Positions 13,991-61,330 of a DNA stretch of 61,475 nt are shown one piece after another. Source of the stretch: Meiothermus sp. Pnk-1 (GTDB taxonomy: Bacteria > Deinococcota > Deinococci > Deinococcales > Thermaceae); NCBI RefSeq assembly GCF_003226535.1, contig NZ_QKOB01000012.1, forward strand, positions 1 to 61,475, written 5' to 3'. Every line of letters begins with the position of its first letter. The stretch's first letter is position 1. The notes under the pieces are model-generated. The model made no database searches. It saw nothing but the letters and a program-made list of their open reading frames with translations, and was not told the DNA's origin. The position numbers and the translations under genes were made by a program.

Positions 13991-14296
13991 GTGAGACAGT
14001 TCGCACGGTCAGCCCTGGTGGCCTTGGCGATGGTGGGCGGCTCGTTCATGGCCTTCGCCGCTTCGGGGAACACCGCTGGGGCGAGTAAAGCCACCATGTC
14101 CATGAAGATTGCTCCCGTGCATATCAACACCGCCACCCTGGCCCAGCTCGAGACGCTGCCGGGCATTGGCCCTAAGCTGGCCCGGGAGATCCTCAAGCAC
14201 CGCCCTTACAAGAACGCCCAGGAACTCCAGCGCAAGGTAAAGGGCATCGGTCCCGCCACCTGGAAGAAGATCGCGCCGTACGTGCTGTTCAACTGA
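13991..14296 (+). CDS. comEA: ComEA-like helix-hairpin-helix DNA-binding protein
   Basis: A 101-residue exported protein. A GTG start 5 nt after GAGG gives a signal peptide (MRQFARSALVALAMVGGSFM, ending about residue 24). The C-terminal half has two helix-hairpin-helix motifs, seen in 'NTATLAQLETLPGIGPKLAR' and 'VKGIGPATWKKIAPY', the standard ComEA domain that binds incoming double-stranded DNA during natural transformation. It lacks the comEC neighbour usual for competence operons. It could instead be one of several small ComEA paralogues of unknown role. Confidence 0.8.
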   Translation: MRQFARSALVALAMVGGSFMAFAASGNTAGASKATMSMKIAPVHINTATLAQLETLPGIGPKLAREILKHRPYKNAQELQRKVKGIGPATWKKIAPYVLFN

Positions 14297-14495
14297 GGGC
14301 GCGGGTGGCTGGATTTATGTCTTACGTCGTACGCTAGGCGCGGTGGATCATCGAAGAACAGGCCATCTTGTATAAGCATCCCTCAACCTTTAGCGAAAGG
14401 AACTGATCTACTCCACATGGAAGACGCTGGCAGTTACAACCCCAAGCCAAGTCCCCCTGGGGGTAGCGCTTTACCCTGAATGGCCGCTGGGCCAG
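14297..14495 (+). other. Structured leader upstream of an importer; no gene seen
   Basis: Between comEA and the permease gene lies about 320 nt without a credible gene. It contains short complementary segments, among them GGGTA/TACCC near 14460-14475 and GGCC/GGCC near 14482-14492, and a GTCCCC at 14451-14456 that could pair with GGGGAC at 14503-14508 inside the terminator arm. Such competition is what an attenuator or riboswitch would show. It matches no riboswitch class I can name. The first part also holds a copy of the GCGTACGACGTA motif (14323-14334, reversed). Confidence 0.35.
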
Positions 14496-14533
14496 CCTCC
14501 TTGGGGACCTAGTCGAATCCAAGGAGGTTTTTT
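14496..14533 (+). terminator. Intrinsic terminator before the double permease gene
   Basis: A perfect 9-bp stem CCTCCTTGG (14496-14504) / CCAAGGAGG (14519-14527) with a 14-nt loop is followed directly by six T residues (14528-14533). It either ends comEA transcripts or acts as an attenuator for the permease gene starting 85 nt downstream. Confidence 0.75.
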
Positions 14534-14617
14534 CGTGCTCGACATCCTGCTTGCTGACCGTTTCTCCCCTTATACCCTAACCTCGCCCAAGAAACCGCGG
14601 TCTTTGGGGGTGCGCCC

Positions 14618-28232: not shown

Positions 28233-28468
28233 ATATGCTGGCCTCACGACTTCATAGCAAAGGACGCCTCCTGTAGGGGTAACCACAAAAATGCAATGCC
28301 CTCGGGGCTTCTTATGGCGGGCATGGGTTTGGCGAAGGTTGGCCTCAGGTCGTCGCATCCCCCGCACTGCCCAGCTCAAGGTCTTCCTGAACCGGACAGT
28401 TTTCCCAATCGGCGCGGAGAGGCTTGCCGCGCGCTCCGGTAAAATAGCCACATGTTCGGGGGCCGCCC

Positions 28469-31400
28469 ATGATCTCGCCCCAGTTCGACCCGCTGACCGG
28501 GGCGCTGAGCCGAGCTGAGCTCTTCCCCACCCTCGAGGCCACCCTCAGCGCGGCGGAGCTCACCGGCGACGAGACCGCCCTGCTGATTCTGGACCTCGAC
28601 CACTTCAAGAGCATCAACGACACCTTCGGCCACGCCCGCGGCGACGCCGTCCTGCGGGAGCTGGTCGAGCGCATCCAGGGCGCGATCCGGGCGGGCGACC
28701 GGCTGTTTCGCTACGGCGGCGACGAGTTCGTGTTGCTGCTGCCGGGCACCGACCACGCCCAGGCCGTCCTGCTGGCCGAGCGGCTGATGGAGGTGGTCCA
28801 GTCGCGGCCCTTCGCGGGCGACCCGCCCCTGTCGCTGACCCTGAGCGTGGGGCTGGCCACCAGCCGGGCCGGTGCCGATACCCCCCAAGCGCTCTTCGAA
28901 CGGGCCGACCAGTACCTGCTCGCCGCCAAGCGGCAGGGGCGTGCCCGGCTGGCGGAGGCGGGGGGCGAGGGCGAGCCCCAGCAGACGCGCTGGCTCGAGC
29001 GCGAAGCCGCCCAGCTTGGCTTGCAGCACTTCCTGCGCGCCTTGCCCAAACATCAGCGGGGGCTGCTGCGGTCGGTGGGACCCGGCGGGGCGGGACACAC
29101 CCGCTTCCTCGAGGAAGCCCAACGTCACGCCCGGCTGCTGGGTTACCGTACCTTCTGGCTCACGGGCCGCCGGGCCTACGCCACCCACCCCTATGGGGCG
29201 CTGCTCGACGGGGTGGGCCTCGGGCTCACCGAGGCCGTAATCCGGCAGGGCAGCCCCGCCCTAAAGGCGCTGGAGGGGCCGGTGCTGTGGCTGGTGGACC
29301 GGCCAGGGGAACTCGACGTGGCCAGCCGCAAGGTGATCGCCGAGTTGCTGAGCGACCCGCAGGGGCCGGTGATGGGTCTGGTTGTCGGGGGAGATGGCGC
29401 CGAGTGGCCCGTGCCCGCGCTGGTAGAGGAGGTCGAGCTGCGGGCCCTCTCGCTTGAATCGGCCCGCGTCCTGCTGCGCAGCCGCCTGCGCTGGGAGGCC
29501 CCCGAGGACTTCGTGGGGTGGCTGTGGCGGGAAACGGGGGGCTGGCCCCGGCCCCTGCTGGAGTGGCTGGAGCAGGCCGAACGCAGCGGGGTTCTGCGCC
29601 CGGGCGGCAAAGGGTACACCCTAAGCCCTGACTACGCCCAGAGGCTGAGGGAGGCCGAAGCCCCGCCCCCGCCCACGCCGGGCCTCCCCGTCCCCAAGCA
29701 CAGCCTCATCGGGCGCGACCGCGAGTTGCTGGAGCTCAAGCGGCTCTTGCGCGAGCGCCGCCTGGTGACGCTGGTAGCCCAGGGGGGCATGGGCAAGACC
29801 CACCTGGCCATGCAGGCCGCCCTCGAGGTGGCCCACCTCTACCGCGACGGGGCCCACTTCGTCTCCCTGGCCGGCCTGGACCAGGCCGAGGCGCTGCCCA
29901 ACCGCCTCATCCAGGAATTCGGGCTCAAAACCTCCGGCGATCCCCAGGAAAGCTTGGTGCAGCACTTCGCGGGCCGCCAGGTGCTGTGGGTGCTGGACAA
30001 CTTCGAGCAGCTGCTCGAGGCCAGCGAGTTCCTGCGCGCCCTGCTACAGGCCCTGCCCGGCCTCACCCTGCTCTTGACCTCGCGCGAACGGCTGGGCCTG
30101 CCGGAGGAGTGGGTGCTGCCCTTGGAGGGGCTGGCCCTGGAGGGGAGCGACTCGGCGGCCATGCGGCTGCTGCTGCAGGCCGTCCAGCGGGTCAACCCCG
30201 GCCTGCGCCTGAGCCAGGCCGAGCTCGAGGCCGCCCGCCGCATCTGCCGGGTGGTGGAGGGCCTGCCGCTGGGGCTGGAGCTGGCCGCGGCCTGGGCCAA
30301 GGTGCTGAGCCTAGGGGAGATCGCCCAGGAGATCGAGAAAAACTTGGGCTTCCTGACCGCCCCAGGGGGCGACGAAACCCGTCCCGAGCGCCACCACTCC
30401 CTGCGGGCGGTGTTCGAGTCGTCGTGGAAGTTGCTGCACCCCGAGGAGCAGCAGATCCTGGCGCGGCTTTCGGTTTTCCGGGGCGGCTTCGACCGCGAGG
30501 GGGCGGCCCGGGTGGCCGGGGCTTCGGTCTCGGGCCTGCTGGGGCTGGTCAACCTCTCGCTCGTGCAGCGCGACCCCCACCACGACGGACGCTACCTGAT
30601 GCACGAGCTGCTGCGGCAGTTCGCCCAGGAGAAGCTCTCGCCCGAGGCCCTCGAGCCCAGCCTGGCCGCCCACGCCGAGTACTTCTGGGGCCTGGCAGAG
30701 CGGGCCGAAGCCGCCCTACAGGGCCCCGAGCAAAGCCGCTGGGTGCGGCGCATCGAGCTCGAGTTCGACAACCTGCGGCTGGCCTTCTCCACCCTGCAGC
30801 GCCTGGGCCGGGCCGCCCAGGGCCAGCAGATGGCCACCTGGCTCAGCCATTGCTACGCCTGGCACGGCTTCTACCGCGAAATCGCCCACTGGCACCAGGT
30901 GTTTTTGGAGATGCCCCATCCGGTGCCCCCGGCGGTGCAGGCCAAAACCCAGCAGTCGCTGGCCCTGCAGCTCAAGAACCTGGGGCTCTGGGAGCAGAGC
31001 ATGGCTTTGGTGGAGCAGAGCCTCCGGGCCAGCCGCGCCTTGGGCGACCCCGGGCTCTTAGCCGAGGCCCTGCACCTGAAGGGGTTGCTGCTGCGCGAGG
31101 CGGGCGAGTTCGCGCAGGCCCTGGCGGCGTTCGAGGAGTCGCTAGCCCTCAAACGGGAAATTGGCGATCGCTATGGCGAGGCCACCACCCTCAACGACCT
31201 CGGCATCGTCTACGGGTTGCAGGGAGAGGACCGCACGGCCAGCACCTACTTCCTGCACAGCCTCGAGCTCAAGCGGCAGGTCGGCGATGAGAAGGGCGTG
31301 GCCTACGCCCTGGGAAACCTGGCGCTGGTCAGCGAAGACCCCGAAGAGGCCCTGCGCTGGCTGTACGAGAGCCTGGAGATCAAACGGCGGCTCAAGGACC

Positions 31401-31777
31401 AGCAGGGCATCGCCAACGCCTACGCCAACATCGCGGCCCGCCTGCTGGAGGCTGGGCGCCCCCTCGAGGCCTGGCCGCTTTTGCTGGAGAGCCTGTCCCT
31501 CTTCCGCCAGATGGGACAGGTGGCCTCGCTGGCCCTGGTGCTCGTGAGCTGCACCCAGGCCCTGCTGGCCCTGCACCGGCCGGCCCAGGCCCTGCAGATC
31601 GCGGCCTCGGTGCGGCGCTGGGACCAGGAACATCCCACCAAGTTACCCCCGGGCACCCGGCGAAACCTCGAGGAGCAGCTCCAAAAGGCCAAAGAGGCCC
31701 TGGGGGCCGGGGCTGAACCCCCTCCGCTGGGCCTCGAAGAGGCCTGCCGGGTCGCGCTCGAGGCCCAGCCTCTCTGA
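28469..31777 (+). CDS. GGDEF domain fused to STAND ATPase and TPR repeats
   Basis: A 1102-residue cytosolic protein. Residues 1-165 are a diguanylate cyclase domain: substrate and metal motif 'LDLDHFKSINDTFGH' at 41-55, active-site GGDEF at 83-87, and an inhibitory RxxD at 74-77 exactly five residues before it. Residues about 170-400 resemble a degenerate AAA region. A P-loop (GGMGKT, 439-444), 'LWVLDNFEQLL' and 'LLTSRERLG' form an NB-ARC/STAND ATPase. From about 750 to 1060 there are TPR-like helices ('EALHLKGLLLREAGEFAQAL', 'TTLNDLGIVYGLQGE'). No DNA-binding domain is seen. TAAAAT upstream (28440-28445) is a -10 candidate. Confidence 0.85.
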   Translation: MISPQFDPLTGALSRAELFPTLEATLSAAELTGDETALLILDLDHFKSINDTFGHARGDAVLRELVERIQGAIRAGDRLFRYGGDEFVLLLPGTDHAQAVLLAERLMEVVQSRPFAGDPPLSLTLSVGLATSRAGADTPQALFERADQYLLAAKRQGRARLAEAGGEGEPQQTRWLEREAAQLGLQHFLRALPKHQRGLLRSVGPGGAGHTRFLEEAQRHARLLGYRTFWLTGRRAYATHPYGALLDGVGLGLTEAVIRQGSPALKALEGPVLWLVDRPGELDVASRKVIAELLSDPQGPVMGLVVGGDGAEWPVPALVEEVELRALSLESARVLLRSRLRWEAPEDFVGWLWRETGGWPRPLLEWLEQAERSGVLRPGGKGYTLSPDYAQRLREAEAPPPPTPGLPVPKHSLIGRDRELLELKRLLRERRLVTLVAQGGMGKTHLAMQAALEVAHLYRDGAHFVSLAGLDQAEALPNRLIQEFGLKTSGDPQESLVQHFAGRQVLWVLDNFEQLLEASEFLRALLQALPGLTLLLTSRERLGLPEEWVLPLEGLALEGSDSAAMRLLLQAVQRVNPGLRLSQAELEAARRICRVVEGLPLGLELAAAWAKVLSLGEIAQEIEKNLGFLTAPGGDETRPERHHSLRAVFESSWKLLHPEEQQILARLSVFRGGFDREGAARVAGASVSGLLGLVNLSLVQRDPHHDGRYLMHELLRQFAQEKLSPEALEPSLAAHAEYFWGLAERAEAALQGPEQSRWVRRIELEFDNLRLAFSTLQRLGRAAQGQQMATWLSHCYAWHGFYREIAHWHQVFLEMPHPVPPAVQAKTQQSLALQLKNLGLWEQSMALVEQSLRASRALGDPGLLAEALHLKGLLLREAGEFAQALAAFEESLALKREIGDRYGEATTLNDLGIVYGLQGEDRTASTYFLHSLELKRQVGDEKGVAYALGNLALVSEDPEEALRWLYESLEIKRRLKDQQGIANAYANIAARLLEAGRPLEAWPLLLESLSLFRQMGQVASLALVLVSCTQALLALHRPAQALQIAASVRRWDQEHPTKLPPGTRRNLEEQLQKAKEALGAGAEPPPLGLEEACRVALEAQPL

Positions 31778-57217: not shown

Positions 57218-57780
57218 GGCATGTTCAGGTCGCTCAGGTCTTGGACGGAGTAGCCCGTCACCAGGGTTCCGCTCCAGAAGGAGTATACCACCAACCAGTA
57301 GCGCCCTATCTTAGGCCCACGCCACTCCTCAGGCACGGCCCACTCCGTGGGCACCAGAGCGGCCAGAACCGGCCCCTGGACCCGGGTATAGGCGAAAAGG
57401 GCCGCCCCGGGGTTCAGGGCGACCTCCCGGCACAGGCGCTCGTAGTCGTCCGGGCCGACTCCCGGGGCCAGGTCGCCCTCCCGCTGGCGCTTCCTCAGGT
57501 GCCACTCCAAGGAGGTGGCCCGGTCCTTCCCCATCCAAAGGCGGTCCTCCGCGGGTACCACCCGCTCCCGCCGGTTGAAGGGCGCGTGCATGGCGCCCGC
57601 GGCCCAGAGCCAGTCCACAGGGTCGGGGTCCGCCTCGCCCCGGGCAATCCGCATGAGGCGCTCCCGGCCCTCGGGGCTGAGCCGGGGCAGAGCGGCCACG
57701 TAGGCCCCCCAAAGCTCGGGGTGGTAGTCCCGGGGGTTCGGGCTCCACTCCCAGGATTGCGGGGCGTTGCCAAGTTTCAA
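57166..57780 (-). CDS. Hypothetical protein whose 5' end runs into a CRISPR repeat
   Basis: A protein of up to 204 residues. The only long start, a TTG at 57778-57780, lies inside the CRISPR repeat, so the natural 5' end has probably been replaced or lies further in (a GTG at about residue 28). The body ('EWSPNPRDYHPELWGAYVAA', 'YWLVVYSFWSGTLVTGYSVQ') has no family I recognise. Codon use is normal for the region. It may be a gene truncated by recombination at the repeat. Confidence 0.6.
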   Translation of the reverse strand: MKLGNAPQSWEWSPNPRDYHPELWGAYVAALPRLSPEGRERLMRIARGEADPDPVDWLWAAGAMHAPFNRRERVVPAEDRLWMGKDRATSLEWHLRKRQREGDLAPGVGPDDYERLCREVALNPGAALFAYTRVQGPVLAALVPTEWAVPEEWRGPKIGRYWLVVYSFWSGTLVTGYSVQDLSDLNMPWREVRWLRVPPHFSPP

Positions 57781-57809
57781 TCCTCTACGAGGCTAACGAA
57801 CTTTGCAAC
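57774..57809 (-). CRISPR. Single complete 36-nt CRISPR repeat, family A
   Basis: Read on the minus strand it starts GTTGCAAAGTTCGTTAGCCT and ends GTAGAGGATTGAAAC. From memory it differs at only two positions from a 36-nt repeat known in Thermus thermophilus. No second copy follows within 1 kb, so there is no spacer array. It is oriented so that the cas genes and a leader-like gap lie on its upstream side. Confidence 0.8.
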
Positions 57810-58046
57810 TCTCCCTCTAGGAAGCAGCTCCAGGTGGGGGCTCTTGGGGTCATTTTCGCACGCGGGGGAAATATGCGTCAAGCTGAGGGAGAAGAGCAGA
57901 GGTCAAAGGGAATTTTCCTGCACCTGGACGGGTGCGCACGCGAACAAGGGTAAAGGAAGGGTATGCAACCTCGAGGGGTGACCTCCTGCACGAGGAAAAC
58001 CCCCAGTTTGGCACCGGGGGTGTGCATAAGGTGACCTTCGCGCTCG
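57810..58046 (-). other. Leader-like gap between cas2 and the CRISPR repeat
   Basis: About 236 nt with no gene. Its place, between the end of cas2 and the repeat, and on the 5' side of the repeat in the minus orientation, is where a CRISPR leader with its promoter is expected. No strong -10/-35 pair was identified. Confidence 0.45.
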
Positions 58047-59983: not shown

Positions 59984-60952
59984 ATGACCAATGAGAACGA
60001 CATTCGCCTAATTCAACGCCTGGAGGATGGTGCAGTACTGAGTGCGGCCGAGCTGGCGGAGTATTTGGGCATCAGCCGGGCCAGCGTGTACCGGGTTATC
60101 CAGCGCTGCGAGAACCGAGGATATAACATCCTACGGGAGAAGGGCCGCTTCCGGCTGGCTAGCCGCGACCGCGATGCCGGGCGCTTCGAGTTTAGCCTCA
60201 GCGCACAGCAGGCCCACGACTTGGTGGCAGCGGTGGAGAGCGTGCGCCGCCTCACGCCCTATGCTGCCGAGGCCCTCGAGGTCTTGCGCAAAACCCTCAT
60301 CGGCCCCAAGCTCGAGCGCCCCTCGGCCGTCTACTACCACTCCTACGACGTGATCGATCCGAAGGTGTACCGGCGGGTTGTCGCAGCTATCGAACAGCGT
60401 AAGGTGCTCGAGCTCACCTACAAGCCCACCAACGTCAAGCGTAGTCTCAGTGAGCACACCTTCGAGCCCTATCGCATCATCTTCTGGAACGGGCATTACT
60501 ACCTGGTTGGTCGTAGCCGCACTTTTAGCCACAAGCCAGGGGGTGGCCTGATGCACCTACGCCTCGACCGAATCCTCGAGGCCAAGGTCGCGGTAGCCTG
60601 GCACGAGGGCCAGAAGGTGCCCGACACCCTGACTTTCCCCGAGCCCGACTTCGACCCCCAGGCTTACGTCGAGCGCAGCTTCGGGACCTTCGGCGGCGAC
60701 GGCGAGCCCGAGGAGGTCGTGCTGCACTTCCCGGCCCACAACGCCAAGGCGGCCGCCGAGGTCCAGCGCCACCCCAGCCGGGAGTTGCTTCCCCAGGACG
60801 ACGGGTCGTTGATCTACAAGCTCACGGTGCCCGTCACCGAGGAGTTGGTGTGGTGGGTGGCTTCTTGGAAGGGCCTGCGGGTCCTCGCGCCTGATCACCT
60901 GCGCGAGAAGGTGCGCCGGCACTGCCTCGAGCTTGCCTATTTGAACCAGTAG
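59984..60952 (+). CDS. WYL-domain transcriptional regulator next to cas genes
   Basis: A 322-residue regulator. The ATG (MTNENDIRLIQRLEDGAVLS) has GAGG 8 nt upstream. Residues about 10-60 are a helix-turn-helix ('AELAEYLGISRASVYRVIQR'). The middle and C-terminus hold a WYL module ('KVLELTYKPTNVKRSLSEHT', 'FEPYRIIFWNGHYYLVGRSR'), a fold that senses nucleotides or nucleic acid. WYL regulators are often linked to CRISPR and other defence loci. It probably controls cas4-cas1-cas2. Confidence 0.88.
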   Translation: MTNENDIRLIQRLEDGAVLSAAELAEYLGISRASVYRVIQRCENRGYNILREKGRFRLASRDRDAGRFEFSLSAQQAHDLVAAVESVRRLTPYAAEALEVLRKTLIGPKLERPSAVYYHSYDVIDPKVYRRVVAAIEQRKVLELTYKPTNVKRSLSEHTFEPYRIIFWNGHYYLVGRSRTFSHKPGGGLMHLRLDRILEAKVAVAWHEGQKVPDTLTFPEPDFDPQAYVERSFGTFGGDGEPEEVVLHFPAHNAKAAAEVQRHPSRELLPQDDGSLIYKLTVPVTEELVWWVASWKGLRVLAPDHLREKVRRHCLELAYLNQ

Positions 60953-61001: not shown

Positions 61002-61020
61002 ATTTCGATCCTCTACGAGG
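61002..61020. CRISPR. Half CRISPR repeat (other half), family A, degenerate
   Basis: ATTTCGATCCTCTACGAGG matches the left half of the repeat at 57774-57809 in 17 of 19 positions. The right half is missing. Together with the half at 56767-56789 it flanks the cas module. The following bases again contain TACGAGG (61028-61034). Confidence 0.6.
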
Positions 61021-61330
61021 AAAAAGTACGAGGCCAGAATGGATTTCCTTAGAACGACGTTCAGCAAGCAATAATTTAGCTGCTTAAGTATGGCGCTTCA
61101 AGCCCCCGATGTTTTGGTTGATATAACGATATGGGGAGGGTTAAGGGAGGGGTTGAAAGGAGGTAAATGGTGCAGTATCATCTAGTACATAGACTTGAGA
61201 CCCCGCACCACCGCCAAGCAGTACAAGGGGTCTCAGGCCAGACTCCAGAAAGGAGGTGAGGACATTATACCAAACTGGAGCATCGACGATATCGCAGACC
61301 CCCTCATGGGTGTGTCCTGGATTTAGGCAA
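61021..61330 (+). other. Gap with two strong ribosome sites and a stem-loop
   Basis: AAAGGAGGT occurs at 61156-61164 and again at 61249-61257. Between them a 9-bp stem TGAGACCCC (61196-61204) / GGGGTCTCA (61227-61235) encloses 22 nt. A 30-residue frame (61168-61260) starts 3 nt after the first site and ends at the second. This may be a leader of a mobile-element gene or a small peptide gene; neither is proven. No larger gene is seen. Confidence 0.35.

Follow-up and report, generated by a model that had tools for sequence, protein, structure and literature searches.

How is a diguanylate cyclase regulated when no sensor lies in front of it? This question is raised by a gene in a 61,475-nt stretch of DNA from Meiothermus sp. 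Pnk-1 (contig NZ_QKOB01000012.1, forward strand), the whole of which is referred to here as the window. The open reading frame (ORF) at 28469-31777 (+) runs from an ATG to a stop codon and encodes 1102 residues, and the open frame upstream of it would add only seven codons. An original prediction, made from the letters of the DNA, described the product as a GGDEF domain fused to a STAND ATPase and a tetratricopeptide repeat (TPR) array. These three parts were recovered in this study by profile searches, by their motifs and predicted structure, and by their conservation across two phyla, and the existence of orthologues with 87%, 83% and ~48% identity shows that the combination is not due to chance; however, the description had overlooked a further, degenerate nucleoside triphosphatase (NTPase) at residues 172-395. 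The order of domains is GGDEF, degenerate NTPase (NTPase 1), STAND NTPase (NTPase 2) and TPR array (Table 1).

The N-terminal domain matches PF00990 over residues 6-159 (E=1.6e-37; 129 bits against a curated cut-off of 23.8) and TIGR00254 of NCBIfam (2.9e-40; 137.7 bits against a cut-off of 37.4), and its model resembles PleD with Z 24 and a root-mean-square deviation of 1.3-1.9 over 155-158 residues. Both the GGDEF active site at residues 83-87 and the inhibitory RxxD at residues 74-77, which reads RAGD, are intact as had been claimed. The DPLTG and DxDHFKxxND motifs are intact as well, with the metal and substrate residues reading DLDHFKSIND at residues 42-51. Even across members sharing ~30% identity, neither the catalytic GGDEF nor the metal/substrate residues vary, and almost every member retains R-x-x-D, with QNDD in its place in G051b (genomes are designated by G numbers and loci by L numbers). 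The protein is thus a predicted diguanylate cyclase, a maker of cyclic di-GMP (c-di-GMP). GGDEF domains act as dimers and are normally governed from the N-terminal side (PMC1592074). In all members of this family, the domain begins ~6-33 residues from the N-terminus, and because no sensor lies upstream of it, control of the cyclase would have to come from the C-terminal side.

The candidate for such control is NTPase 2. The P-loop GGMGKT previously placed at residues 439-444 was found there, and the P-loop, the Walker B motif, a TSR-type sensor (residues 537-539), GLPL and MHEL are all kept in members down to ~30% identity, with the Walker-A lysine present in every alignable member. STAND-type Pfam models match near residues 425-607 (NACHT 1e-5, AAA_22 2.6e-5 and NB-ARC 2.4e-4), and most of the full-architecture relatives exceed the NB-ARC cut-off across this region. 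Downstream, the TPR array gives a TPR_12 match of 6.7e-22 and is modelled at a predicted local distance difference test score (pLDDT) of 80-93 over much of its length. The model resembles LGN (Z 27) and the Rap and NprR peptide sensors (Z 23-24), a likeness of fold that suggests an array of the peptide-binding type.

Between the GGDEF domain and NTPase 2 lies the domain that had been missed. No Pfam model scores NTPase 1 of the window protein, because a histidine replaces the Walker-A lysine: the motif reads GPGGAGHT (residues 204-211) and does not match the GxxxxGK[ST] pattern. The corresponding region of several relatives matches AAA_16, ATPase_2 or nSTAND6. Among the aligned members, GKS or GKT occurs only in G050b, G051a and G051b, while GR is found in G319 and G810, GQ in G050a and G145, and GH in G494 and all Thermaceae members; since different residues replace the lysine in different members, these variants suggest that it has been lost repeatedly. 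The model of the segment (pLDDT 75.3, predicted template modelling score (pTM) 0.68) matches Cdc6 (1fnn_A, Z 13.4 over 222 residues) and NLR resistosome chains (Z ~12.7; NRC2, 9fp6_A, Z 12.8). Overall, the matches to Cdc6/Orc-type AAA+ proteins and NLRs have Z scores of 12-13 and cover ~200-220 of 242 residues, the winged helix included. At the loci examined, this type of middle domain occurs only together with GGDEF.

Orthologues of the same architecture are found in C. roseus (L044, ~87% identity), G008 (83%), and G011 and G019 (~48%), with more distant members at ~30-33%; a further orthologue, in G002, is broken in its middle by a 100-N assembly gap. The ratio of nonsynonymous to synonymous substitutions (dN/dS) is 0.16-0.23 in every domain, indicating purifying selection, but 0.44-0.86, or relaxed, in the C-terminal tail (residues 1061-1102), where identity is 45-52% compared to 80-91% in the rest of the protein. 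The possibility of a pseudogene or decaying gene was ruled out, as the gene is intact in several species and the low dN/dS extends to all domains apart from the tail.

The full architecture was present in 6 of the 111 Deinococcota species genomes examined, that of the window included, 3 of 396 genomes of the class Anaerolineae, and 4 of 400 evenly sampled Chloroflexota genomes (~1%). These counts rest on thresholds of 1e-85 to 1e-110, at which divergent copies may be missed, and the presence of GGDEF plus the middle domain was verified for the hits of one of the two Chloroflexota/Anaerolineae samples. Several Chloroflexota genomes carry two full-architecture or likely copies (L046, L125 and L127, from G051; G145 contig C3, with the likely second copy at C3:956059-959232). 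Inspection of GGDEF loci L047-L123 for an adjoining STAND domain revealed none besides those at L044-L046. Matches on viral contigs were GGDEF-only and those on plasmids STAND-TPR only, with no full-architecture copy among either. Likewise, no description of a GGDEF or diguanylate cyclase domain combined with STAND, NB-ARC, NACHT, TPR or AAA was found in open-licence PMC papers. The refuting condition named in the original prediction, an architecture that is common and already characterised, was therefore not borne out, and the combination of GGDEF, two STAND-like domains and TPRs is rare and apparently undescribed.

The relatives of the STAND-TPR portion, hereafter the chassis, indicate which end of the protein carries the output. 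BTAD regulators of the Deinococcota have this chassis, four of the five tested matching PF03704 with E=5e-12 to 1e-14, and it is also found in a Chloroflexota Ser/Thr kinase protein (L207), where the kinase is N-terminal. As anticipated by the claim that STAND proteins carry an effector at one end, the nearest STAND-TPR relatives mostly have BTAD or a kinase at the N-terminus, and for this reason the N-terminus is taken as the output position of the chassis. In the tree of the STAND part, the five Thermaceae GGDEF members lie among Deinococcota STANDs, beside BTAD types, and branches with good support carry three or more changes of the GGDEF label. By comparison, the GGDEF-domain tree places the family nearly in one group, with two changes overall and one change in 40% of bootstrap trees. 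A single origin of the architecture is compatible with the GGDEF tree, while the STAND tree requires at least three label changes. Because the label switches in the STAND tree, the GGDEF domains nearly group, and the middle domain accompanies only GGDEF at the loci examined, it is likely that GGDEF and NTPase 1 form a cassette that is transferred between STAND-TPR sensors of different kinds; the claim goes no further than likely because rooting was arbitrary, the branch of L198 is long and bootstrapping of the GGDEF tree had not settled.

The gene as a whole also appears in different places. Its neighbourhoods are unrelated between species, with the Calidithermus and G011/G019 copies at other loci, and the neighbours, which are mostly housekeeping or transport genes, differ between species. 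No gene is kept beside it between genera, so an operon partner was rejected, and the unrelated neighbourhoods fit a stand-alone module. In a genome of the same genus (G001), the LysR-yeiH flank matches at 89% up to window position 28278 and the GGDEF-STAND gene is lacking. In G008, the gene and a tatA-like gene sit between matches to window positions 14031-14297 and 14395-14549, and the corresponding window site (14297-14395) is unoccupied, with only ~100 bp.

In STAND proteins generally, the repeat array acts as the sensor, the NTPase switches between ADP and ATP, and the effector is N-terminal. The reading preferred here, with a probability of roughly 60%, is that the gene encodes a single-protein, cytoplasmic, ligand-gated diguanylate cyclase. 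It starts from the observed domain order, the intact cyclase and NTPase 2 motifs, the degenerate NTPase 1 and their conservation, to which ligand binding in the TPRs, nucleotide exchange, oligomerisation and GGDEF dimerisation are added as proposed steps. At rest, the ADP-bound STAND domain and the TPR arms would keep the protein monomeric, leaving the dimer-requiring GGDEF domain off. A peptide or protein ligand in the TPR groove would trigger ADP/ATP exchange in NTPase 2, and the ATP-loaded protein would then oligomerise, as do NLRs and STANDs of the AfsR/MalT type. NTPase 1, presumably silent in catalysis, might be a rigid adaptor or one subunit of the oligomer, setting two GGDEF domains face to face; the pair would make c-di-GMP, with RxxD capping the output. 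A wider proposal is put forward only tentatively: that this is a bacterial NLR-like receptor with c-di-GMP output, in which GGDEF and the pseudo-NTPase form a portable module that different STAND-TPR sensors have acquired on more than one occasion, the dead NTPase is a lock or adaptor turning STAND oligomerisation into GGDEF dimerisation, and the cyclase is controlled from its C-terminal side.

The genome offers a possible route for the signal. In addition to ~12 other GGDEF domains, it encodes six EAL domains, and a search for PilZ domains in this genome found none. The candidate c-di-GMP receptor is a 971-residue PilF-like ORF with three MshEN domains (G000:C4:192663-193904; L175, L176). In Thermus, c-di-GMP is bound by PilF, and twitching and attachment are reduced when this binding is lost (PMC11731258). 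The likely receptor would accordingly be this PilF-like type IV pilus ATPase, with EAL proteins degrading the signal.

Several results weigh against a ligand-gated cyclase. The model of the whole protein has low confidence (pTM 0.37, with four sequences) and was not used for geometry, so the arrangement and oligomerisation of the domains are put forward here as proposals. On profile search, the STAND assignment held in part, most full-architecture relatives being above cut-off and the motifs present, but the window protein itself falls just short of the Pfam thresholds (NACHT 25.9 bits versus 26.7; NB-ARC 20.9 versus 23.5). A fold like that of peptide-binding TPRs is no proof that peptides are bound, and with ~12 other GGDEF domains in the genome, the phenotype may be small.

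Other explanations of the same architecture are also conceivable. Signal flow could be reversed, with GTP or c-di-GMP entering at the active site or RxxD of the GGDEF domain and steering a STAND-TPR output such as recruitment of a partner to the TPRs. Degenerate GGDEF domains do serve as nucleotide sensors, and the STAND-TPR part carries no recognised output domain besides GGDEF; however, sensor-only GGDEF domains usually lose the catalytic residues that are invariant here, and the N-terminal slot in chassis relatives holds output domains (BTAD or kinase), making this direction unlikely. Ranking after it is the doubtful idea of a constitutive cyclase on a scaffold, in which the STAND and TPR portions only position the enzyme near a receptor and create a local c-di-GMP pool, with no gating by ATP. 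The loss of the NTPase 1 Walker-A lysine in most members would make part of the NTPase machinery a scaffold, and the TPRs resemble the protein-binding arrays of LGN, yet a passive scaffold would not need the motifs that NTPase 2 has kept. Least probable is an anti-phage or conflict sensor resembling Avs or bNACHT, with TPRs spotting an invader and c-di-GMP as the alarm: GGDEF and cNMP cyclases generate messengers in NTP-dependent conflict systems (PMC7159879) and the gene is patchy and shifts between loci, but PADLOC returns only the generic TPR model PDLC01169 and no named defence gene, no effector gene is kept alongside among the mostly housekeeping and transport neighbours, the closest chassis relatives are BTAD regulators rather than defence proteins, and viral contigs lack a full-architecture copy.

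Table 1. Features of the GGDEF-STAND-TPR gene and its start region (window positions)
Feature	Position	Strand	Remarks
Whole gene, GGDEF - pseudo-NTPase - STAND NTPase - TPR	28469..31777	+	1102 residues; intact orthologues; dN/dS ~0.2
Candidate -10 promoter element TAAAAT	28440..28445	+	6 nt before an ATG; putative function
Possible 6-codon leader ORF ATGTTCGGGGGCCGCCCATGA	28452..28472	+	stop overlaps ATG of GGDEF-STAND gene
GGDEF (diguanylate cyclase) domain	28484..28951	+	residues 6-161; PF00990, TIGR00254, PleD fold
RxxD product-inhibition site RAGD	28688..28699	+	residues 74-77; 5 residues before GGDEF
GGDEF active-site motif	28715..28729	+	residues 83-87; invariant among full-architecture members
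NTPase 1, degenerate AAA+/STAND NTPase with winged helix	28982..29653	+	residues 172-395; profiles of relatives, model fold
Degenerate Walker A GPGGAGHTRF of NTPase 1	29078..29107	+	residues 204-213; Lys to His
NTPase 2, STAND/NB-ARC-like	29681..30688	+	residues 405-740; NACHT, AAA_22 and NB-ARC matches; relatives above cut-off
Intact Walker A QGGMGKTHL of NTPase 2	29780..29806	+	residues 438-446; P-loop GGMGKT 439-444
Walker B VLWVLDN of NTPase 2	29981..30001	+	residues 505-511
GLPL motif, NB-ARC type	30260..30271	+	residues 598-601
MHEL, MHD-like motif	30599..30610	+	residues 711-714
TPR array	30746..31648	+	residues ~760-1060; TPR_12, model superhelix
Variable C-terminal tail	31649..31774	+	residues 1061-1102

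The start region of the gene is partly shared with its closer relatives. C. roseus, G008 and G002 also have TAAAAT or TAGAAT ahead of the gene, and the same three keep an ATG-opened, six-codon frame ending in ATGA before it. Positions 28452-28472 may be a leader ORF, or the G-rich stretch within them may instead be a Shine-Dalgarno-like site. For G011 and G019, a -10-like box stands immediately 6-7 nt before the start codon of the gene itself, an arrangement typical of leaderless transcripts.

Two other parts of the window deserve mention. The intergenic region at 14400-14560, upstream of a nitrate/taurine-type ABC transporter, is ~80% kept in G008 and holds pairs of C-rich and G-rich stretches and a T run (AAGTCCCCCTGGGGG ... 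AAGGAGGTTTTTT); it has no Rfam match and is possibly a leader RNA or attenuator. At 57774-57810, Rfam identifies one CRISPR-DR31 repeat, with a degenerate copy at ~61005-61022 near the window end, while Cas-like ORFs at ~58.0-59.9 kb (minus strand) and a helix-turn-helix (HTH)/WYL-like regulator at ~59985-60950 were labelled by eye. Together, these features resemble a CRISPR locus that is almost empty.

Diguanylate cyclases normally receive their signals from upstream, whereas the cyclase described here would be an output placed at the N-terminus, to which an NLR-like switch is linked through a pseudo-NTPase. If so, c-di-GMP signalling would gain an entry route that is cytoplasmic, gated by ATP and read through TPRs, and STAND activation could be followed through the product of an enzyme in a single thermostable chain. 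The role of a degenerate NTPase inside STAND proteins would also become a testable question.

Among known systems, SARP/AfsR-type BTAD-STAND-TPR regulators (G006 L020 and G018 L021) share the chassis, with 41-44% identity over residues 385-1102, as does an annotated BTAD protein on the Allomeiothermus silvanus plasmid NC_014213.1. In the window protein, GGDEF and the degenerate NTPase replace the BTAD DNA-binding/activation module, and a Pfam search at E<=1 gave no BTAD match, so the pairing of winged HTH and BTAD is absent. The mycobacterial class III adenylyl cyclase-ATPase/NB-ARC(-TPR-LuxR) proteins of the Rv0386 type are similar by description, with a cyclase placed N-terminally on an NTPase regulator, but they make cAMP rather than c-di-GMP and end in an HTH; GGDEF is a distant relative of the class III cyclases. 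PleD, WspR, DgcB and SiaD share the GGDEF fold, active site and RxxD, but in canonical cyclases upstream sensors signal through a helix into the GGDEF N-terminus (PMC1592074), whereas here GGDEF is itself the N-terminus. The vWA-MoxR conflict systems likewise couple messenger domains to NTPase switches, but they are ternary, consist of several genes and use other NTPases, while the window encodes STAND and TPR in a single protein; GGDEF is described as a rare messenger generator among other conflict systems that depend on NTP (PMC7159879). NLRs and Apaf-1/CED-4 have in common with the window protein a nucleotide-binding domain and winged-helix switch, GLPL and MHD-like motifs, a repeat sensor and an N-terminal effector, and the NTPase 1 model matches NLR resistosome chains, but here the effector is a predicted c-di-GMP enzyme, the NTPases are in tandem with one degenerate, and the repeats are TPRs rather than leucine-rich repeats or WD40. 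Since GGDEF in conflict systems and adenylyl cyclase-NTPase fusions are already known, the protein is best regarded as a variation on established cyclase and NTPase switch themes, in which the order GGDEF, pseudo-NTPase, STAND, TPR itself is apparently undescribed.

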